From Oegoconia quadripuncta (lineage: Eukaryota; Arthropoda; Insecta; Lepidoptera; Autostichidae), in assembly GCA_949316235.1 (NCBI GenBank), contig OX438742.1, positions 13,143,315-13,207,314 on the forward strand: a stretch of DNA of 64,000 nucleotides, in the 5' to 3' direction. Shown in pieces: positions 15,301 to 63,479 of this stretch. How positions within the stretch are numbered: the first letter of the stretch is position 1; each line of letters starts with the position of its first letter. The position numbers and the translations under genes are program-made. Under the pieces are notes generated by a model. That model was given only the letters and a program-made list of their open reading frames with translations, made no database searches and was not told the DNA's origin.

Positions 15301-18300
15301 TACGAAACAATTAATTCATAAAAGCTATAATCATATGCTTAGTCGGGATCTCAAAACAATAACTAAAGCATAGACGATGTTTTTAAACGAATAACCACAC
15401 TCCACATCACATCCATAATCTCCTGGTAAGCAACTATACATAGAATAGTAAATATTAGAATAGTACATTCATAGCATTACAAGCAAATAAATTCCAAACA
15501 AACTTCGAAGTTCAAAATCTTCGAAATGAATACACCGCTTCTGATGAAATTTCATGCGCGTGAGCAAGATAAAGCTAGTAGAAAATACTCTTGAAAATTG
15601 TAACAAAATTAGAGCGATTTAATGTTTTCCGTATTAACAGAGAAATGCAATGAACTCTTCTTAGTCAGATATTTCCAAAATCTCTCTACAACTTCTAGAT
15701 TTATGTGTTTGTTTATGCGTATAAAGTTTCATCAGAGAAGGTTTCGTCATTTCGCCAATTTGAAAGTTTGTATAGAATGCCATGCGACGTAAAATATGCG
15801 TAACGCACTAGGAGTGCCGGTCTCTCCAAGGGTACACCATCATTAGGTCTTGATGAAGGAATTGAAAACCTATTTTATGATTACAACTCTATGCTTTAGT
15901 CAATACTCTTGAGGTCACACATTTTAAGTATGTTAATAATAATATTTTTATATTTTATGGCAATAGAATTTACACAACTAAATGCACCTATACGATAAAA
16001 TAAAGTTACTACAGAAGTATAAACATTGCAAAGTATGCTCCACTAAGAGGTAAAAAGACCATATACATTAGAAGTTGAACGGGCTAGAGTACTCCAGCGT
16101 ACCGAACTCACCGTATTAACAGCCGATTGAACTGCGGGGTTCGCCTGAAAATATTCATATTTTTAAGCAGAAAGATCAACTCAAGTACTTACAGCATGCA
16201 CGCATTAGATCACTCGTAAGCCAGCGTTAGTGTTGCCAGGTTTATGTCACATTTAGCTTCAGTGTATTCCTAAATAGTAAATGAATAGAATGTTTTCGTG
16301 TTGTGCGAGCGATGGGCTAATGGAATTTAAAATTGTAGTTTTCAAATAATAATTTAAACTTTAACACTGCAAACATACAAAATGATAGTGGCTTAGATTA
16401 GGATAAGAGCGAATCCAATTCAGATAAATCCAAGTAAAAATCCAAATAAGTAATAGGATGCGAGGAGACTGATGTAAACATGAACTTCCGGATAACCTCA
16501 AACACTATTTAATTACTTTATATTGTTTATAAAATTGCCATAAAACAAGAGAAAAAATCCCTATATTGCAAGAAATTTCAATTGCATAGCACCAGTAGGT
16601 GCAAAGGAACTGGAAGATGATATTTTTTTTTGTTATTATAGTCATATTAGTTATGCTTATTTTGTCGTTTTAATGTTATTCGTATGACACTCCAGTCATA
16701 TCCCGTTACTTCCCCGTACGAACAATATGGAAAAAATATGCCGGAAACTTGTTGTTTTACTCGTATTATAATCCAATCGCGAAGAAGTCGACGCGTGGAT
16801 GAAGGGCCTTAAATAATGAAAATTTCGTTTTACGAATTAGATTTCTTAAATCTTCTAGAAAACAAAGAACAAAAGTTTGGAAAGCTAAGTAGTGTGATTA
16901 ACAGTTCATTTAATTTTTCCTTCCTTAATGTGCATTGACATATTCATAAGTTGTCGCGTACATTAGAAACGTAGATGTAGTGATTTTGTTGGAATGCCAA
17001 CAATACAAGGTCATTTCGTTTACTTGCCGAGCACTTACTTATAAGTAAGTGCTCGGCAAGCGCCTATAACTTATTATAGGCGTTATGTATATTATAATGC
17101 TGTTGTTGGATTTAAAACATTTATTGCGTTAGTCTCAAAAAAATATATACTCGTTATAAATGTGTGTTATTTGTAAAGATGATTGTCTGAAATGAACTAT
17201 TAAAATATTTTTCATTAAAATTACTTAGTATGTCCGAAGCGTTAAAGCAAATTCTACAGGTGTATTTTAGTGATTATGATTCTAATGAAAAATAAAAAAC
17301 AACAGACTTCCAAACCGGCTCAAGTTTTACCTTGGCTTTTACTGTTTTGAAAAAAGCACCACCTTCTTTCTTGACAGTTTTGGCCCAATCTCTTACTTAT
17401 AAGTAAGTGCTCGGCAAGCGCCTATAACTTATTATAGGCGTTATGTATATTATAATGCTGTTGTTGGATTTAAAACATTTATTGCGTTAGTCTCAAAAAA
17501 ATATATACTCGTTATAAATGTGTGTTATTTGTAAAGATGATTGTCTGAAATGAACTATTAAAATATTTTTCATTAAAATTACTTAGTATGTCCGAAGCGT
17601 TAAAGCAAATTCTACAGGTGTATTTTAGTGATTATGATTCTAATGAAAAATAAAAAACAACAGACTTCCAAACCGGCTCAAGTTTTACCTTGGCTTTTAC
17701 TGTTTTGAAAAAAGCACCACCTTCTTTCTTGACAGTTTTGGCCCAATCTCTGTACTGTTGCTTTAGTCTTTGTCCGCTCCCCGTATTTAGCTTGTCTGCA
17801 TAATTATAGCACTCGACCTCGAACTCGTCGTTGAATCCTCTTCCAGAATTGAGCAAATCCAGTCTTTCGTCGATAAACTGAAGATAATAAGAATAATGTG
17901 GAGGTAATAGAAGATAGGGCGAGTAGGTACAGGTCCTTAACCAAGTTTAATGCAAACCGGATAAGCCGTTTTGAAGATATTAAGCTTTTAATACAGTCTT
18001 TTAGTGAATTTCAATGATATCATAGGCTTTCGAGGGTACACAATTCTATACACAAAAAACAAAATAAAAAGTATTTAATTTGACACATAAGCATGTAATA
18101 GATCAGTAGCAGCCCTGACTCTTTAAACTGGAAGGTAATAGTAGATTGTTAACCAAGGGCTGTATGACATCAATTGCATACGAGGTTGTGAGGGCGCTAA
18201 TTAGCCCGAGTATGCAATTGATGCTTCCACCCGAGATAAACACTCTGCTTTACATATCGATTGTGAGGTAAGTAAAAACAAGAAAGCAGGTTTCTATGAA

Positions 18301-21300: not shown

Positions 21301-24300
21301 AGTGCATAGAATTCGTAATGTAAAATATATATTAAAACCTCACCTAATAGCATCCCGATAGCCACCTATTAAACAAACTAATGCACGAAGGAATGCTCTG
21401 GAAACAGCATCTCCAAGAGCATTTTTATCACTTAATGCTTTTTTTAAACTCGCTACCTGAAAATAAATAATAGGTATGTATTAAATTTCAATTAGATATA
21501 AAGTGACATTGCAACTTATAGACCTTTTACGGCATTTATAAACATGTGCTTCGCTCTTACAAACAACTACATTTCCTTCTCTGGAAAGAAATGTAAGAAA
21601 AGAACTATTTTCTTAGATTTATTTTCCTATATATTCATTTACTTAAATAAAACAAAATAAGTATAGTGCACGCACATATCACAAACCCCAAGTACATTTA
21701 CTCATTTCATATCTTATGTCAAAATAAAACAAAACATCTGGCGAAACCAGGGAATTGAAAGTGAAGATGGAGATTTAATTTAGTAAAAATAAACGTTGAA
21801 AGCCAATCTACCGATTTTAATTTAAAAATGCCCAATTTCTGGATTATTTCTAACGATTTCTTTTATACATTGTACCTAACTGTGTACCTATCTCGCAGTA
21901 GTAACGCGAGGTACGATGTATATCCACATGAATCACCGTACTGTCGCCTTCATAGTCTATATTTATGACCGTTCGGACAGACGCAAGCATCTGTAAGTAA
22001 ACCCGTTTAATACGCGTCGTGACGCCTGCAAGATGTGACGGAATATATCGCACAGATTTTATTCGAGTAACGAGTTTACGAAGCGTTTGTTCTGTCGTCC
22101 CAAATGTGAAGGACGTTACGTGCCATGTACGAGTCGTAACAGGCTAAGCTGGATGGATACGTTACAGCTTACTGGGTGTTTTCTCATAGTAATTCATAAA
22201 ACCTATTTTTATCACAGCGAGTATGGTACGGTAATTGGTACGAATACCACAATGAATTTCTGCCACCCTGCTGTACAGATTTAGCTTTGTATTTCTATAG
22301 GCACACTTAATCCTTACCATATCAGGAGGAAGACTTTCTAAATCATGGAACGGAGATCTAAGTTCATTTGCGTCTACATCTAATATTACAACATCTCCTA
22401 TTTCTGACATTCTGACACTCTGCAACAAAAAAAAAACATACAAATTCAGATAAGAAAGTCATAAATAGTATCAAATACAACTTTCACGTACAGTGGAAAA
22501 GTGGTCACTCACCAGGAGCATGACCATATAATGTAACAATCCAGGATTCGATAGGGAGCATACATTATAGTGACGCGCACTGATCGGATGCTGGACTGGA
22601 TACTGATACACTGATACAATGCTCTAATCTGAGCTGTTACATTACATGCTCTGCTCTCGGTGAGTCATCACATGAATACTATAGTGGATATCCAGTTTAA
22701 AATAATTACTATAAATTACTTTTATGCAAATCTAAAATAAATAATAAATAAAACTATGTTCGAAGTAAAATGAAAAAAAAAAACTATCTCCGATGTTGAA
22801 CTTGTGCACAAATGTTACATCAGTAAGATAAGTTTTCTTCGTTTTTACTTCGAACATACATTTAAAGGACCATAATTTTAATGTTACCCTGATATTCAAA
22901 CGGTACGGGTTCAAATCATGGTTACGATTGGATATGTATTAAAATCGGCGCATATTCTTACCTCCATAACACTTCTAGGAACTCCAATGAGAAAGGGCAT
23001 GGGCGCAAGTAGGTAGTCCACTAGGTGTTTAGGTAGGATTGGTATGAAAATGTGCTGCCAGGACATGGGGAAGAGCGTCGCGTTAGCCGCCTGCACGCAC
23101 GCCGACAAACGCGACGGTTTCGACGCGACGATCGCGACTCGCCGCTCATGGAGTAATGCCGCCCATAGCCCAGACATGCATTTCGAGTCCATAGCACTGA
23201 AGTACTCCGTTAAGTTGCACTGTAAGTTAAACAAATGTTTTGTTAATTTTATCGGCTTGTGAAACACAAAGTCAAATATAGTATAAAAATGCAGTTGCAT
23301 AAATATATCTACTCTTTCATTCATTACAATATGTCCACCAATAATGTGAGTTAACCTTCGTTGGTCGTCGTCTATAGAGAGAATGATTGTGTTTGATTGC
23401 ATACTTCCGCGGGTGAGTGGTTTGCTTTACGAACACTGAACTGCAAGTCGTGCGTACAAATCAAATCAAAATATTTTATTTCATAGGATGAAATTATCAC
23501 TTGAAAACGTCACTATAATATTAATATTACATTTAAATTTACTGCTCATTCACAAAGCTGCCTCCCCGAAGAAGAACGAGCAAGAAACTCTAGGCTTGCT
23601 CTTTCATACAGATTATGGGTTACAATTTATGGTTTGATAATTATATGAATAATAAGACAGCTATATCCATGCTTGCTTATCATTCAAATAGTCAGTTATT
23701 TTATAATAGTTTTTATAAATAATTTCTGTTTTATGATTGCTTTAAATACGAATCGTTTGTCGACCTTTTGGCAAAATTTACCTCCTTTTCCAACGACAGA
23801 GGATATCCTTGCTGCATTTAGTCGTGACGCAATGAAAATCTTGCTATAGCTGTGAGGTGTTATTAATAAAAGCTATGTGGGATGATACTCAAACGACTTT
23901 GTTCCCATCACTGGCAATTCAACAATTTACTTATACAATATGTTCCTCAGCTCAATTAGACCAGTGGCCTACTTTGTTAACTTCAATGGCAATGCAGTTC
24001 GCCAGTCGTCGATATTGATATGACATTCGAAGCTTACCCATTGATTGAATTTGACCGTTGAAATATTTGCGAGATGGCCTAGTCACGCGGATTATATAAA
24101 AAATACTTACATTTTCTGGAATACTCGGCAGTTTTGCGTCAGGACTTTGGCAAGAAAACACACTCTGGCCAGCATTGTATGTGACCTTTAGAGTATGACC
24201 GGGCATAGGCGGCCTTATCCGACAGGCATCCAGTAGAGATGTAAGTTCGCTCCGCTCGGGGCCATTTATAAGATTTGCTATACAATTTAATAATCTGAAA

Positions 24301-33303: not shown

Positions 33304-34289
33304 AATCTGACCTTTTTCTTTTTTTGCATAGGAAGGATAGTATTTCTACTTCTCTTTCTAACAAACTGACAACAGTATTTTTTACTTTCTTAGTTCCAAA
33401 GATGCACAGCTGCATAATATGGTTTGTAAGGAGTTTTGGAATTCATAACGACCCAGAAAGTCTTTGTATTTTTTATTTTTTTATTTATGCAGAAAGTATT
33501 TTTATCTCTTGCAATGGATTTCTTCTATGGAATGGATGCAACATTTTTCTATGGAAACTGGCTTATCCACCCACAGTCATTTCGATTTTTTTTCAAAGTC
33601 AAGACACGACATTCACCTTTTCTTTCACTTGGTCAAAGTAATTACGCCTAGGTCTTCCCCTTCCTCTTTCCATCAAGAGGATACTTATATGAACAAAAAA
33701 TGTCAAGTAATACGGTACCCTACAGTGTCACGTTCCCGAGATATTTGGAGGTAAAGATCACAAACCTATAAATCTATTTATCTCCTGAAAACCAGTTAAT
33801 TTACACATTAGACCTTATGCGTCTAAGGTCGAGATATACCTACGGGTGGAATCCCTCCCACGCCTAGTAGTTCGATTTGTGTAGTATATATATCAGCCAT
33901 CTGGTATCCATAATATAAGCCTAGTTGCTTAGTGTGGAACTAGATGGCGCTGCGTGTATGGGCAAAAATATGTATTATTATTATTTGCATTGAGCCACGG
34001 AGTTGGTTAAATTAGTCGACTGTCGCCCTATAGCTGATGATACTTGATTGGAGTTCATAGCAGCATGAGAAATAAAAATCAATTCAATTTATATCAGTTA
34101 TATTAAAATAAACGTCTATTCTCAATAAATTGCTTAAAATTCATTAGTAGTAATTTTAATAAATCCTTAACATAATCTCGTAGGCAGACCGTTGAATAAG
34201 CCGTTCAACTGAATGCCTGGGCATAGCGTAATAGCGAACATTTCCGCTTCTATGGATAACTGCTGCTAAGACCTGGTTAGGTTGTGCTA

Positions 34290-34302
34290 GGTTCCTTTGG
34301 AT
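34290..34302. repeat. Left target-site duplication of retroposon
   Basis: GGTTCCTTTGGAT, identical to 35708-35720 after the poly(A) run. One more A may belong to it. Confidence 0.9.
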
Positions 34303-34459
34303 GGGGTGCGATGTCAGACAACCTCCTCGTGTGCCTGATGGCTACTTGTCCCCCTGGATACGTCTGGGGGGAACGGTAGTCGTTGGGCCGGTGCACCCTG
34401 GGCATCGGTCAACAACTTCCCTTTAAGGGTTCTTGTTGACCGATGGCTAATAGTCTGAC
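34303..34459 (+). ncRNA. HDV-like self-cleaving ribozyme at retroposon 5' end
   Basis: Pairings seen: P1 GGGGTGC (34303-34309) with GCACCCT (34393-34399), giving the G.U wobble at the cut as in HDV. P2 GTCAGAC (34313-34319) pairs with GTCTGAC (34453-34459). P3 ACC (34321-34323) pairs with GGT (34390-34392). L3 begins TCCTCG as in HDV, able to pair CC with GG of the GGGC (34400-34403) that follows P1'. P4 is a perfect 12-bp helix, 34404-34415 with 34433-34444. J4/2 is GGCTAATA (34445-34452), with the expected catalytic C. L3 is unusually expanded, about 65 nt, with its own helix. Cleavage would fall between 34302 and 34303, the exact element boundary. HDV-like ribozymes are known at 5' ends of R2, RTE and other LINEs. 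Confidence 0.82.
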
Positions 34460-34749
34460 GGGGTGGGCTCCTCCGCGTGTCCCTCTGGTTTAGCAGAGGG
34501 CACTGCGGATGGAGCAGGAGACGCTCCCCTCCTAGCGGGGGAGTAAGGGTGGGCTCGGTGTGCACTCGCACTGCCGCCGAGCAGGCCTGGGGAGGAGGTT
34601 AGGGGGAACCTCCTACCCCTTGCCACCGCCGGGCTCGTAATCCGGGACCGCGGCTTTCAGCTGCACCCCGCCCGGACCGCGAGGAAGGAAAACCTCTATA
34701 AAAAACCAGCCCAAGTTTCGGCTCCGAGGCCCGCCTCGGCGCCGAAATG

Positions 34750-34801
34750 CCCTCGTCGTCCCACTCCCGAAAATTCGTTTTCGGGAGTGGAACGACGAGG
34801 G
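34750..34801 (+). other. 24-bp stem-loop with TTCG loop inside the retroposon
   Basis: Arms 34750-34773 and 34778-34801 pair with one mismatch around TTCG. Confidence 0.85.
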
Positions 34802-35707
34802 ATGGTGGAGGGCGAATTCCACCACAGCGGGCTGCGGCGAGGAAGCGGCGCTCCCTGAGGAATGCCCATCTGGGCAGGGGGCGCCGTGAAATCGTCTGCA
34901 GCACGTGGGCGACCTCTCCTTGACGACTGCAGCTAAGGCTGCGGCCGTCGACGAGAGGTCGTGGGGAGCGCCCCCCCCCCCCCCTCTGTTCGGGGGGGGG
35001 GGGGGGGGAGACGGCGGGCGGGTCGGAGGGGCGGTGTCAGCCAGCTGCCTCTACGGGCCTCCCGCTGTTGCAGGCCGCTATGGTAGGGGACGACCTCTCT
35101 GTTGAGGGGTCGTAGCCGTGCGGGACGGCCACTCTTTGCCGCCCGCAGCCAGGTTTGAGCTGCGGACGCCAAGGAGGGGCCGTGGAAAGCGGTCCTCTCT
35201 CTCTGCGAGGCGTGGAAACCTCTGCGAGGTCGGTCACTCGCAGAGGCCTCGCGGAGCGAGGGGAAATGCAGCCGCACGGGGGGCACGGAGGAGAGCTTAT
35301 CTTTACTGATAGGCGATCCTCTGCCCCCCTACCCTGCGGGGCCGTGGGTGGCGATCCGGGGGGATCACCGCCCACACATAGGCCCCGCGAGAAGGCGCGC
35401 GCGGTGTTTTCCGCGCGCCTTCTAGAGGTGGCTGGACCAGGCGATTCCTCCCTGCTCCAGCCCAGAGGTGGGCCTGCCGCCGCTTTTGCCCTGGCGGCGG
35501 GCACCGCGCTGGCGTGGCTGCGGACGAATACCAGATGGTACCCGTGGCCACGCCGTCAACGGCGCGCGCGAGGGAACACCCAGGAGTTTTTAGTCGGTAG
35601 GCCGGCACCTTCTGTGCCGGAGTCCGACATAATCCGCCCCCCTCCCCCGAGGAGGGCGGATAAGCATGAGCGTTTCTCCTGGTAAAAAAAAAAAAAAAAA
35701 AAAAAAA

Positions 35708-35720
35708 GGTTCCTTTGGAT
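35708..35720. repeat. Right target-site duplication of retroposon
   Basis: GGTTCCTTTGGAT directly after the A-run, copy of 34290-34302. Confidence 0.9.
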
Positions 35721-36507
35721 ACTACCGACAACCTTTTGGTAGGGCAGGTCACTATAATACAGGAATGTCTGCCATATTACGATCCATCCAGACATGCAAC
35801 TGAATTGCTAATTTAACCATCTGCCTACGACATATATATTCGGTACTTCGGTATAGAATAGGTACATACATTTTCGGTCTACCGTCAATCAAGATAGGAT
35901 TTGTTGTCTCATTCTGACACAATACTCACATAAGTTACTCATGTTGCCATTTTATTAATTTGATTTTTAAACAAGCAATCTGGTACAATGTTTCCGAATC
36001 AAATATACAATTTCCACGTGCACGCACACACAACAGATTGGTCCCCATCCATAATATTATTAAATTCAATGCAATAATAACAGCTTTTCCAAGTTACTAG
36101 GAACAAAACCATTAAAACATTCATGTAAAATACTCTTGTAACTATGATTAAACGAATCACGTACAGTATTCTTTTTGGAAAGTCAGATTTTTTTAAAATT
36201 CATTTTATTTATTATTTGAGCACTTGGTTATACGCATCATAACTTGATAAAAAACTGCAAAATGTAATTATTTATATTATGTAAAAAAGTATAATTTCTT
36301 AGCTAGCTAAGGAAGAACAGATAATGTCCAATTATATTAATAGTACATTTTAGTTTACGAAATAGTACAAAGTTCTATATATGAACCATAATTGTACAAA
36401 ACAGACTAATAACTTTAAATAGATTGTGACATTGCCTTTCGATGTATAGTACCAGATAAGGAAACCGGCTCGCAAAAGCCCATATTGCCAATTCGCAAAT
36501 GAACATA

Positions 36508-36666: not shown

Positions 36667-36800
36667 CGCTTCACGAGAAAAAACGCTGGTAGTGCGCATC
36701 ATTGTATTCAGAATTCGAGGTCAATTGTGATCATAATTTACGTTTCTGGCACTACGCCTCGAAAGAGATGGAAAAGTTTCTTAACAACATTTCTGGACTA

Positions 36801-37070
36801 TACAGGGCGTCCCAAAGTTATGGGACATGAAGGGGAAGTACCTTAAATATCGTAGATAGTGAATTTTGCTCAAAGAAGACTTTATGTTATTTTTAAAAGT
36901 TAGTAATTCTGCATTCATAGATTTTCTAAAAATTACTTGCTTCGGCTGGGAATCGAACCGACTTAAATGTGAAAAAAAAAACACCCTACTTTTATGATGC
37001 CAATCGAAAGAATAGCTAAAAAATAATAACTCTGCCTAAGTAACATAGTATTTTAAAAGAAAGGAACAAC
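36801..37070 (+). repeat. Left inverted repeat of the complete mariner
   Basis: Matches 38655-38924 in reverse complement with few differences. Contains, at about 36944-36961, GCTGGGAATCGAACCGAC, which on the other strand is a tRNA T-arm/B-box-like GGTTCGATTCCCAGC. Confidence 0.9.
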
Positions 37071-37514
37071 ATAAAATGATTGAGTCAAATTTCAAGAAAG
37101 TTATTTATTGCCGACGACGTTCGAAAAGTAGCGATATTATCATTCCAAAGATAGCATTGATTATTCGTAAATAAGTACCCACTTCATAAAATAGGTACTA
37201 ACATAGTTTTCCTTATTATAAGTGCACGTGTAGATGAAATGATAAAACTTGTATTTCAATACGTCCTCTGTAAGCTAGACAGAAGGCAAATTAAAAACAA
37301 AAATAAATAATTTATAATTTGAAAATGGAACAGTTTATGACAGCGTTTGTTTGAATGCATACTTTTTAAGATATTTTAAAAAGAAGTGATATTTTTAAAT
37401 GTTGTTCTTAAATTTGAAAATGGAACAGTATGTGCGAGCGTTTGTTTTTCGGATATTGATCTGTTTAGTCTCAATTCACTTACACAAGTGTTATTGTGTT
37501 AATTTATTGCGAAC

Positions 37515-38576
37515 ATGGCATATCAAGTAAGTTTTGATCTAATGGAAGCATATTTTTTGAACGATAAAGATATCTCTAGAAGTTTGCGGTGGTATGGCGT
37601 AAAATATCCTGATAGACAAATACCGTCTCGTAAAGTTTTGAAAAGGCTTGTGAACAATTTGAAAACTCTGGGACGTTTCGATAAACGCCCAAGAGAACCA
37701 CAGCAAGAAAACCATACGATCAACGACGAAGAACTTGGTATTTTAATTTACTTTTCGGCTTTTCCGAAAGCATCGGTGAGAGAAGGAGAACATGAAATTG
37801 GAGTTTCAAAAAGTAAAATACACCGTGTATTAAAAAAACACGGTTTTAAGAGTTATGTTGAAGGACGATTGGTTCAAAAATTACTTCCGGGCGATACAGA
37901 AAGGAGAAAAAATTTCTGTCTTGATATCCAGGCACGATTGCTCGAAGATCCAAATTTTTTGGATAATATTATTTGGACAGACGAATCTAACTTTAGCAAT
38001 AACGGTATGTATAACCGCAACAATAATCGTATTTGGTCTAAAGAAAATCCCCTACGAGTGACTGAAACTAATAACCAAGTGCGTTTTTCACTCAACTGTT
38101 GGTGCGGACTTTTAAAAAACCGGGTTTTCTTAATCCATTTTTACCAAGGAACCTTGAACACAGAAAAGTATTTAGGAATACTTCAAATTTTAAGGGATAA
38201 GATAAGAAACCATTCCGCGGCGGAGCAAGAAAACTTAATTTTCCAACAAGATGGAGCTCCGGCTCATAATAGTCGGAGAGCAGCAGATTTTCTAAATGAA
38301 TGTTTTCCTACATGGATTGGTACAAATGGACCGATTAGATGGCCGGCCAGATCCCCGGACCTCACACCATTAGATTTCTTCTTTTGGGGATACGTGAAAG
38401 ATATGCTATACAAAAAGCGATACGAGAACGTAGGCGAGTTGCAAACAGAATTGTGCCATATCACATCGAGTGTTCACCATAAAATGATTAGAAAATCAAC
38501 AGGCAGCGGGCTCATTAAAAGATTGGCGATTTGCGTAAGACAAGAGGGATCACATTTTGAGCATTTAATTAATTAA
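37515..38576 (+). CDS. Mariner-type DDD transposase, 353 aa, intact
   Basis: Cut-and-paste transposase of the IS630/Tc1/mariner superfamily. The N-terminal ~110 residues look like paired helix-turn-helix DNA-binding domains (IPSRKVLKRLVNNLKTLG; SKSKIHRVLKKHGFKSY). Catalytic triad read from motifs: D156 in IIWTDESNF, D246 in FQQDGAPAH, D282 in RSPDLTPLDFFFWG. The D246-D282 gap is 35 residues, so DD35D rather than the 34 of classical mariner. The C-terminus ends GSHFEHLIN, common in a subgroup found widely in arthropods. ATG 37515 gives full family length, and the terminators TAA TTAA follow directly. No frameshift or stop was seen. Confidence 0.93.
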   Translation: MAYQVSFDLMEAYFLNDKDISRSLRWYGVKYPDRQIPSRKVLKRLVNNLKTLGRFDKRPREPQQENHTINDEELGILIYFSAFPKASVREGEHEIGVSKSKIHRVLKKHGFKSYVEGRLVQKLLPGDTERRKNFCLDIQARLLEDPNFLDNIIWTDESNFSNNGMYNRNNNRIWSKENPLRVTETNNQVRFSLNCWCGLLKNRVFLIHFYQGTLNTEKYLGILQILRDKIRNHSAAEQENLIFQQDGAPAHNSRRAADFLNECFPTWIGTNGPIRWPARSPDLTPLDFFFWGYVKDMLYKKRYENVGELQTELCHITSSVHHKMIRKSTGSGLIKRLAICVRQEGSHFEHLIN

Positions 38577-38654
38577 TTTACAAAAAAATACCTACTTAAT
38601 TGACTACGGCAGTTTCATGTATGTTTTTTATTTGATTAAAATGATTAATTTCAC

Positions 38655-38924
38655 GTTGTTCCTTTCTTTTAAAATACTATGTTACTTAGGCAGAGTTATT
38701 ATTTTTTAGCTATTCTTTCGATTGGCATCATAAAAGTAGGGTGTTTTTTTTTTCACATTTGAGTCGGTTCGATTCCCAGCCGAAGCAAATAATTTTTAGA
38801 AAATCTATGAATGCAGAATTACTAACTTTTAAAAATAACATAAAGTCTTCTTTGAGCAAAATTCACTATCTACGATATTTAAGGTACTTCCCCTTCATGT
38901 CCCATAACTTTGGGACGCCCTGTA
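38655..38924 (-). repeat. Right inverted repeat of the complete mariner
   Basis: Reverse complement of 36801-37070. Contains GGTTCGATTCCCAGCC at about 38765-38780. Confidence 0.9.
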
Positions 38925-39118
38925 TACATAACTATATCAAATATATTTTTGGTATACAAAATAGGTCCAAAGCATAACAATAACATTTATAAAAATAATG
39001 AAAAATATCTATATATAAAATAATATTATGTATTGATATCACGACATAACTTCATGACTTAACAACTACTTGCAATTTATAATTTCTTGTCTTACCGAGG
39101 AGTTGACCGTGGAGAGGA

Positions 39119-61953: not shown

Positions 61954-62069
61954 TTGTTACAAATTCTGCAAGCATAAATACATAATTTATGTTCAAAGCT
62001 GAGTTTCAAAGAAATAAAGGAATGTTTGTAAAAACTAAGTGCAGACAAATAGGTTAATATTGTGGATTA

Positions 62070-63114
62070 TACAGGGCGTCCCACGGCTATGCCACATGGA
62101 GGAAAAGTACCTTGAATTTTGTAGATGGAACATTTTACTGAAAAAAGACATTATTTTAATTTAAAAAACAATTTAAACTGCATTCATAGATTTTTAAATA
62201 AGTACATGGTTGAACCGGGAATCGAACCATTTATTTATAAAAAAAAATTACCATGTAGCTTTATCATACCGATCGAAAGGCTTCATCATAAGGATTATTT
62301 TTTGCTAAATAACATATTGTCAGAAATAAAAGGAAGACCATGAATTTTAACATTAGATGTTCAATTTTGTTCAGAAAAATGAAAAGCTGACATTGCCGTA
62401 AGGACATACAACTGACATTATCATTACTAATACTAATTACCCACTCGAGAAGTATGCATCATTTCCCTATTATAATTTAAGTTCATGATAAAATGATAAA
62501 GAGATACGTAATTAGTAAGTATGACTATCTCAATGAACATTTTCTTTCCTGGATCGGGACAAATGGACGAAAAAATGGCCGCCGAGATCCCCAGATCTAA
62601 CCCCGTTAGATTTTTTTTATGGGGTTATGTAAAAAATTTACTTTACAAGAACCAGTGTCAAAGTGTCCACGAGCTACAAACTGAACTTCGACGTATTATT
62701 CTAAATATCCACCACAACATGATCAAAAAATCGACAGGGAGCGAAATAATCAACAGAGTGCGACTTTGTATTGAACAGGATGGGACTCATTTTGAGCATT
62801 TGATAAATTTGATTAATTTTGTATTAAAAATGTTAAAATTCATGGTCTTCCTTTTATTTCTGACACTATGTTATTTAGCAAAAAATTATCCTTATGATGA
62901 AGCCTTTCGATCGGTATGATAAAGTTACATGGTAATTTTTTTTTTATAAATAAAGGGTTCGATTCCCGGTTCAACCATGTACTTATTTAAAAATCTATGA
63001 ATGCAGTTTAAATTGTTTTTTAAATTAAAATAATGTCTTCTTTCAGTAAAATGTTCCATCTACAAAATTCAAGGTACTTTCCCTCCATGTGGCATAGCCG
63101 TGGGACGCCCTGTA
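62070..63114 (+). mobile_element. Internally deleted mariner, second subfamily
   Basis: A 1045-bp element with TA on both sides, ends TACAGGGCGTCCC/GGGACGCCCTGTA and inverted repeats of about 283 bp (62070-62352, 62832-63114). The interior keeps only the 3' third of a transposase. It lies just upstream of the first MFSD6 coding exon, in the inferred 5' UTR intron. Confidence 0.88.
62527..62822 (+). pseudogene. Truncated, frameshifted mariner transposase C-terminus
   Basis: Begins with LNEHFLSWIGTNG, aligned to residues about 260-272 of the intact transposase. The frame is lost in a short A-run near 62567-62574, and the family blocks KWPPRSPDLTPLDFFLWG continue in another frame. Then GYVKNLLYKNQCQSVHELQT, MIKKSTGS and GTHFEHLI follow. 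D1 and D2 are missing, so it cannot be active. Confidence 0.88.
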
Positions 63115-63479
63115 TATAAGTTTCTCGTGGCACAGTTAAGGAAAAATAAAGTTAAAAATGTCATACCTACTATTCTAGGCTAGTTTTAAAAAGGGAATAA
63201 TATATTAAGTTCTCACAATATAGCAAATACATCAAATTGCAATTAAAAACTTAAAAAGAAATTCACACACACTTTTAAACTTCTTGAAAACTTAAAAAGA
63301 AACTTGTGTTGATTCACATGGGGAACTAACTAACCATAAAATATGTACGAAATGTTTTTTTAAACTGTCTGGGAGGTTTTTGATAACGGCTGCTGCTTTA
63401 AGAATTTGTCTGACAACCGGTCAAATAAATCACGATTTTAGAACTTTGTATCGAGAAACAAAAATTAACATCCTATATT

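Follow-up and report, generated by a model that had tools for sequence, protein, structure and literature searches.

Within the 64-kb stretch of DNA analysed here (the window), positions 34303-35683 of the plus strand form what is probably a non-autonomous non-LTR retroposon of the SIDE type, full-length and the product of a recent insertion, which is released by an HDV-like ribozyme of its own and copied in trans by a LINE. As in SIDEs, the ribozyme stands at the first base of the element. Several other readings of the same stretch are weighed below; they overlap, and the confidence attached to the different readings need not sum to one.

A noncoding element with the ends of a retroposon

The element measures 1381 nt and is followed on the plus strand by an A24 tail (35684-35707), the whole being framed by two exact copies of a 13-nt target-site duplication (TSD), GGTTCCTTTGGAT, at 34290-34302 and 35708-35720 (14 nt with a single tail A included). 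Both the tail and the duplication are those expected of target-primed reverse transcription and, since both are perfect, we infer a recent insertion; the carrier has the appearance of a young retroposon. Its G+C content is 66.8%, as compared with about 32 to 39% in other 2-kb stretches of the window. The retroposon is hosted by a foldback element with inverted arms at 34175-34233 and 35775-35833 (73% over 59 nt).

A Pfam search of 7 of the 25 stop-to-stop ORFs of the element (at least 50 aa) returned no family at cut-off and a single sub-threshold match, to the SMN YG-box (E 0.07; 13.3 vs 21.3 bits). The longest sense ORF, 189 aa from stop to stop and containing an unbroken 139-codon ATG frame from 35266, has no relative at E 0.001 among 2193 word-sharing candidates. 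Reverse transcriptase and other known proteins are therefore absent as judged by Pfam in these 7 of 25 ORFs and by homology in the longest sense ORF, and a coding origin of the body finds no support in either search, although the 139-codon frame is unbroken. The 64-kb window contains no Rfam match at gathering score, be it to rRNA (unlike the 28S setting of the Drosophila SIDEs discussed below) or to tRNA, of which ARAGORN also found none; a SINE with a tRNA, 5S or 7SL head was rejected on these blank ARAGORN and Rfam results.

No convincing further copy occurs within the window, the top match being 16 nt long (E 0.07). Pattern searches for copies retrieved 40 stretches of viral_contigs with a 15-mer and none with a 19-mer, and at least 119 stretches of genome_contigs with a pattern from the 3' end; in a BLAST comparison of the element with 159 loci from these searches, only short matches were found (top 19 nt, E 0.033).

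Helices and motifs of an HDV-like ribozyme at the 5' end

The helices P1, P2, P3 and P4 follow one another in the nested-pseudoknot order of HDV at 34303-34459, all on the plus strand. P1 has 7 bp in the placement made by script, its 5' strand GGGGTGC (34303-34309) pairing with 34393-34399 and its first pair being a G.U at the predicted cut. After J1/2 (GAT, 34310-34312) comes the 5' strand of P2 (34313-34319), which forms 7 of 7 Watson-Crick pairs with P2' (34453-34459), the 3' end of the ribozyme, while P3 consists of ACC (34321-34323) and GGT (34390-34392), the latter strand running without interruption into P1' (34390-34399 together). L3 opens with the conserved TCCTCG (34324-34329) and P1' is followed by GGGC (34400-34403), both in agreement with the Rfam consensus; the GGGC is a candidate partner of the C's of L3 in a possible tertiary P1.1. 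The hairpin P4 (34404-34444) has 12 of 12 perfect outer pairs (34404-34415 with 34433-34444), and J4/2 (GGCTAATA, 34445-34452) carries the GGCTAA of the Rfam RF00094 consensus, with C34447 as the predicted catalytic C.

All of these helices and motifs (P1-P4, TCCTCG, GGGC and GGCTAA), which the first-pass annotation had read from the letters of 34303-34459, were placed in HDV order by script. The predicted cut at 34302/34303, just before G34303, is also the inner edge of the duplication, the copy at 34290-34302 ending there as had been noted from the start, so that the anatomy and the end position together back the assignment of an HDV-like ribozyme to the retroposon's first base, where it would be expected to cleave. 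For R4, Dong, baggins, L1Tc and Drosophila R2, cleavage is described as occurring at the first base of the element (PMC3774820). The same 5' end could be the start of an internal promoter lying in this stretch, with the ribozyme secondary, much as Pr77 unites promoter and ribozyme in the first 77 nt of an element (PMC4035085, PMC8256844); however, the cut site alone predicts the end to the base, and we regard a promoter start, a reading that overlaps both with release by an active ribozyme and with the relic ribozyme considered below, as quite unlikely.

The ribozyme fold is energetically allowed, as forcing it costs only 1.8 kcal/mol for P1+P3+P4 (-78.9 kcal/mol) or 2.8 kcal/mol for P2+P3+P4 (-77.9 kcal/mol) compared with the pseudoknot-free optimum (-80.7 kcal/mol), before any gain from the second pseudoknot helix. 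In that optimum P1' is taken up by L3-side bases, and the optimum thus competes with P1. The hexamer GGGGTG that opens the element recurs at 34460-34465, directly 3' of P2'; this repeat is a possible regulator, a candidate for pairing with P1' in place of P1.

Motifs and pairing exceed chance expectation

In a permissive search, RF00094 (HDV_ribozyme) scored 18.1 bits against its cut-off of 50, below the gathering score, with an E-value of 9.9 in 1501 nt and of 1.2 in 176 nt (both over all 4227 families), or about 0.1 for this single family over 64 kb by our own arithmetic (division by the number of families). Among the seven families found below threshold in the 176-nt stretch it came fourth, behind three unrelated ones that were likewise far below their own cut-offs. 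The alignment begins P1 on G34303 and misplaces P4 and J4/2; its low score may be due to the L3 insert and to P4 having been missed. The site has element order, L3 start, GGGC and GGCUAA in common with RF00094 and differs from the model, whose L3 is short, in scoring under the cut-off; because the gathering score is not reached, we call it HDV-like and not a member of RF00094.

A relaxed descriptor of the HDV topology gave 6 matches on the plus and 15 on the minus strand of the window (21 in total), 53 matches in 10 one-strand shuffles of the window and 172 in 300 shuffles of the element, of which 5 had TCC at L3 or GGGC. With matches so frequent in shuffled sequence, topology alone is weak evidence, and it was discarded as a line of support. 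The descriptor and covariance searches that the first-pass annotation had suggested as a check had a divided outcome: the covariance model starts P1 at G34303 at only 18.1 of 50 bits, and the relaxed descriptor is unspecific.

More specific is a motif score made up of three Rfam consensus stretches (TCCTCG, GGGCA and GGCTAA, 17 bases) plus the required pairing. The site at 34303, with the L3 start and the J4/2 C in place, has 17 of 17 motif bases and is the sole start on either strand of the window to reach at least 9 of 17 with the required pairing, whereas 117 of 1000 element shuffles contain some match of at least 9 and the top score among them is 13. The pattern search of viral_contigs for ribozymes with a long or a short L3 returned 98 and 16 stretches, respectively. 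When the same motifs and spacing were sought in 273 viral and bacterial loci, the 107 placements had at most 20 of the 23 checked pairs, all 23 of which are present at 34303, and the 16 placements with a short L3 had at most 17; none of the 107 long-L3 or 16 short-L3 placements was fully paired. A chance resemblance could appeal to the loose topology, of which shuffled windows contain about 5 instances per strand, but a full motif score at one start only, the absence of any score above 13 in 1000 shuffles and the exact coincidence with the end of the element make it extremely improbable. The small likelihood of a joint occurrence, as asserted in the first-pass annotation, is borne out by motif score, pairing (23 of 23 as against 20) and position.

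A 60-nt hairpin in the catalytic loop

L3 spans 66 nt (34324-34389), i.e., TCCTCG and then 60 nt (34330-34389) for which the Rfam model has 2 positions. Folded alone, these 60 nt reach -38.7 kcal/mol, and the predicted fold contains a hairpin of their own at 34333-34388 with 24 bp. The hairpin may constitute a peripheral domain that does not displace P3, P1' or the catalytic start of L3.

Large structured peripheral domains on an HDV core are also found in drz-Agam-2 of Anopheles, where they lie in J1/2 (P1.2) and P4 and not, as here, in L3 (PMC4908430, PMC4513843). R2 ribozymes are described with large J1/2 loops (PMC3774820), and a consensus legend for HDV-like ribozymes names J1/2 and P4 alone as expandable (PMC8256844). 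The nearest variation of L3 in the literature searched is that of the Nasonia R2, in which the spacing of conserved nucleotides deviates; this ribozyme differs in being part of a full R2, and no L3 helix is mentioned for it in the available text (PMC3774820). Likewise, the available portions of PMC10879173 and PMC4870747 name no L3 expansion. As regards the expanded L3 put forward in the first-pass annotation, the expansion is real in the sequence, with 60 nt and a helix of its own, and its novelty extends as far as no precedent was found in the literature searched, where L3 is not shown as an expansion site of natural HDV-like ribozymes; coverage of that literature being incomplete, we do not claim absence from print, and a 60-nt hairpin within the catalytic L3 may be new.

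The insert could impair catalysis. The ribozyme might accordingly be a relic, active in an ancestor and no longer cleaving in the family with the L3 insert, whose 5' end would come from a transcription start or another nuclease. The insert does fall in the catalytic loop, a single G-to-A change in L3 of a Nasonia R2 is reported to leave no detectable cleavage (PMC3774820), and the weaker cleavage of one R2/R1 SIDE may stem from L3 differences (PMC3414825). However, all core motifs and helices are intact, the end of the present copy coincides with the predicted cut, and the R2 ribozymes described include one from Nasonia in which L3 is unusually spaced (PMC3774820), for which reasons we think a relic unlikely. 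If, as we favour, the ribozyme cuts, the catalytic loop of the HDV core would tolerate a 60-nt hairpin, search descriptors would widen (Rfam gives only 18 of 50 bits), and ribozyme engineering would gain another insertion site.

A body of predicted hairpins

From 34460 to 35579 on the plus strand, fold windows and the list of hairpins describe the body as a chain of hairpins with no recognised protein. The RNA of the whole element has a predicted fold of -886.7 kcal/mol, for which 100 dinucleotide shuffles give a z-score of -19.2. The corresponding z-score of the antisense strand is -15.5, much of the folding signal thus being plain inverted repetition, but the excess of sense over antisense stability is itself greater than in shuffles (z -3.2), and the sense fold has 49 G.U pairs as compared with 21 in the antisense fold. 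When the element is divided into overlapping 250-nt windows, all 10 have z-scores between -3.7 and -11.6; in 96 background windows the mean is -0.37 (sd 1.40), and one lies below -3.5. The predicted fold comprises 24 unbranched hairpins of at least 7 bp, including those of L3 and P4, and such a body (z -19.2) may be new. At 34971-35008 a C-tract of at least 14 stands opposite a G-tract of at least 14 in a 17-bp hairpin.

Pairing is mostly local, with 449 of the 516 pairs joining bases under 100 nt apart, which makes the fold unlike a viroid-like rod. A 3'-terminal branched domain closed by CCAGGAG/CTCCTGG occupies 35580-35682 on the plus strand (-57.0 kcal/mol for 35575-35683) and is a candidate recognition end for the reverse transcriptase of a helper LINE. 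It includes a TTTTTAGT stretch at 35587-35594, which might hint at an R1-clade origin of the 3' end.

An HDV-type ribozyme, strong self-pairing and the lack of a recognised protein would also be expected of a delta-like or viroid-like RNA that had been captured and retroposed once by a LINE. Against this highly improbable origin stand the local hairpins in place of a rod, the absence of a minus-strand HDV match in the element (Rfam, to E 10), and the A24 tail with its distinct 3' domain. A deltavirus-like agent proper, with rod RNA and ribozymes on both strands, was discarded on the local pairing and the missing minus-strand match.

Relatives of the element and a proposed cycle

The closest published layout is that of the R2 and R2/R1 SIDEs of Drosophila, which have an HDV-like ribozyme, lack a reverse transcriptase and cleave in vitro (PMC3414825). 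They share with the present element the 5' position of the ribozyme and reliance on a LINE helper in trans, which here would be an analogous one; the R2/R1 hybrids, with 14-bp TSDs, are thought to rely on R1 machinery (PMC3414825). Poly(A) lengths of 14 to 38 A's in the R2 SIDE and the 14-bp TSDs of the hybrids (PMC3414825) compare with A24 and 13 bp here. By contrast, the Drosophila SIDEs sit in 28S rDNA and the R2 SIDE has 529 bp, as opposed to 1381 nt plus tail, and the available text mentions no L3 insert in them, whereas the present element has its 60-nt L3 hairpin (PMC3414825).

In trypanosomatids, NARTc, RIME and SIDER are truncated LINE derivatives with Pr77 as 5' HDV-like ribozyme (PMC4035085). 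They differ from the present element in their hosts and in the compactness of their 77-nt ribozyme/promoter, and no hairpin chain is described for them in the available text (PMC4035085). Retrozymes resemble the present element as non-autonomous, noncoding, ribozyme-bearing retroposons and differ in their hammerhead ribozymes and circular RNA intermediates (PMC7761336). A carrier without reverse transcriptase, presented as a novelty in the first-pass annotation, had hence already been published in the R2 and R2/R1 SIDEs (PMC3414825) and in NARTc, RIME and SIDER (PMC4035085), and a parasite RNA that uses a ribozyme is not new.

The cycle that we propose is based on one copy, at 18.1 of 50 bits in Rfam, and on the layout shared with published SIDEs, and builds on the observed anatomy, end-to-cut match, tail, TSD and lack of a recognised protein. 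The element would be transcribed within a longer host transcript, the first 157 nt of the element would fold as an HDV-like ribozyme and cut before G34303, and the resulting RNA would begin with the ribozyme. A reverse transcriptase acting in trans and supplied by a LINE would then recognise the poly(A) tail, the 3' domain or both, and target-primed reverse transcription would copy the RNA as far as its 5'-terminal base, such that new copies again begin with the ribozyme. More tentatively, and with less than even confidence, we suggest a noncoding retroposon family with an RNA of about 24 hairpins and an active ribozyme, in which a domain grown from L3 helps or gates folding as P1.2 in J1/2 does in the mosquito ribozyme. 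The carrier would show that noncoding parasites headed by a ribozyme are not confined to the rDNA and trypanosomatid cases cited above, and its hairpin-chain body would make selection on RNA structure itself testable in such parasites.

Other features of the window

A transposon at 36799-38926 has 279-bp inverted ends that are 98.6% identical and contains a Tc1/mariner-type transposase ORF (37512-38573) with DUF4817 above cut-off and DDE_3 just below. The top database protein is 97% identical to this ORF, and among the named relatives of the transposase is one from the beetle Acanthoscelides obtectus (38% identity). Together with the DENN-domain match given below, the transposase points to an animal host, perhaps an insect. 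A related transposon copy lies at 62068-63116 (inverted ends 97.6% identical). Two 358-bp tandem copies occupy 17034-17756 (99% matches), and a DENN-domain match on the minus strand at 22914-23426 (E 2.9e-27) probably marks a host-gene exon.
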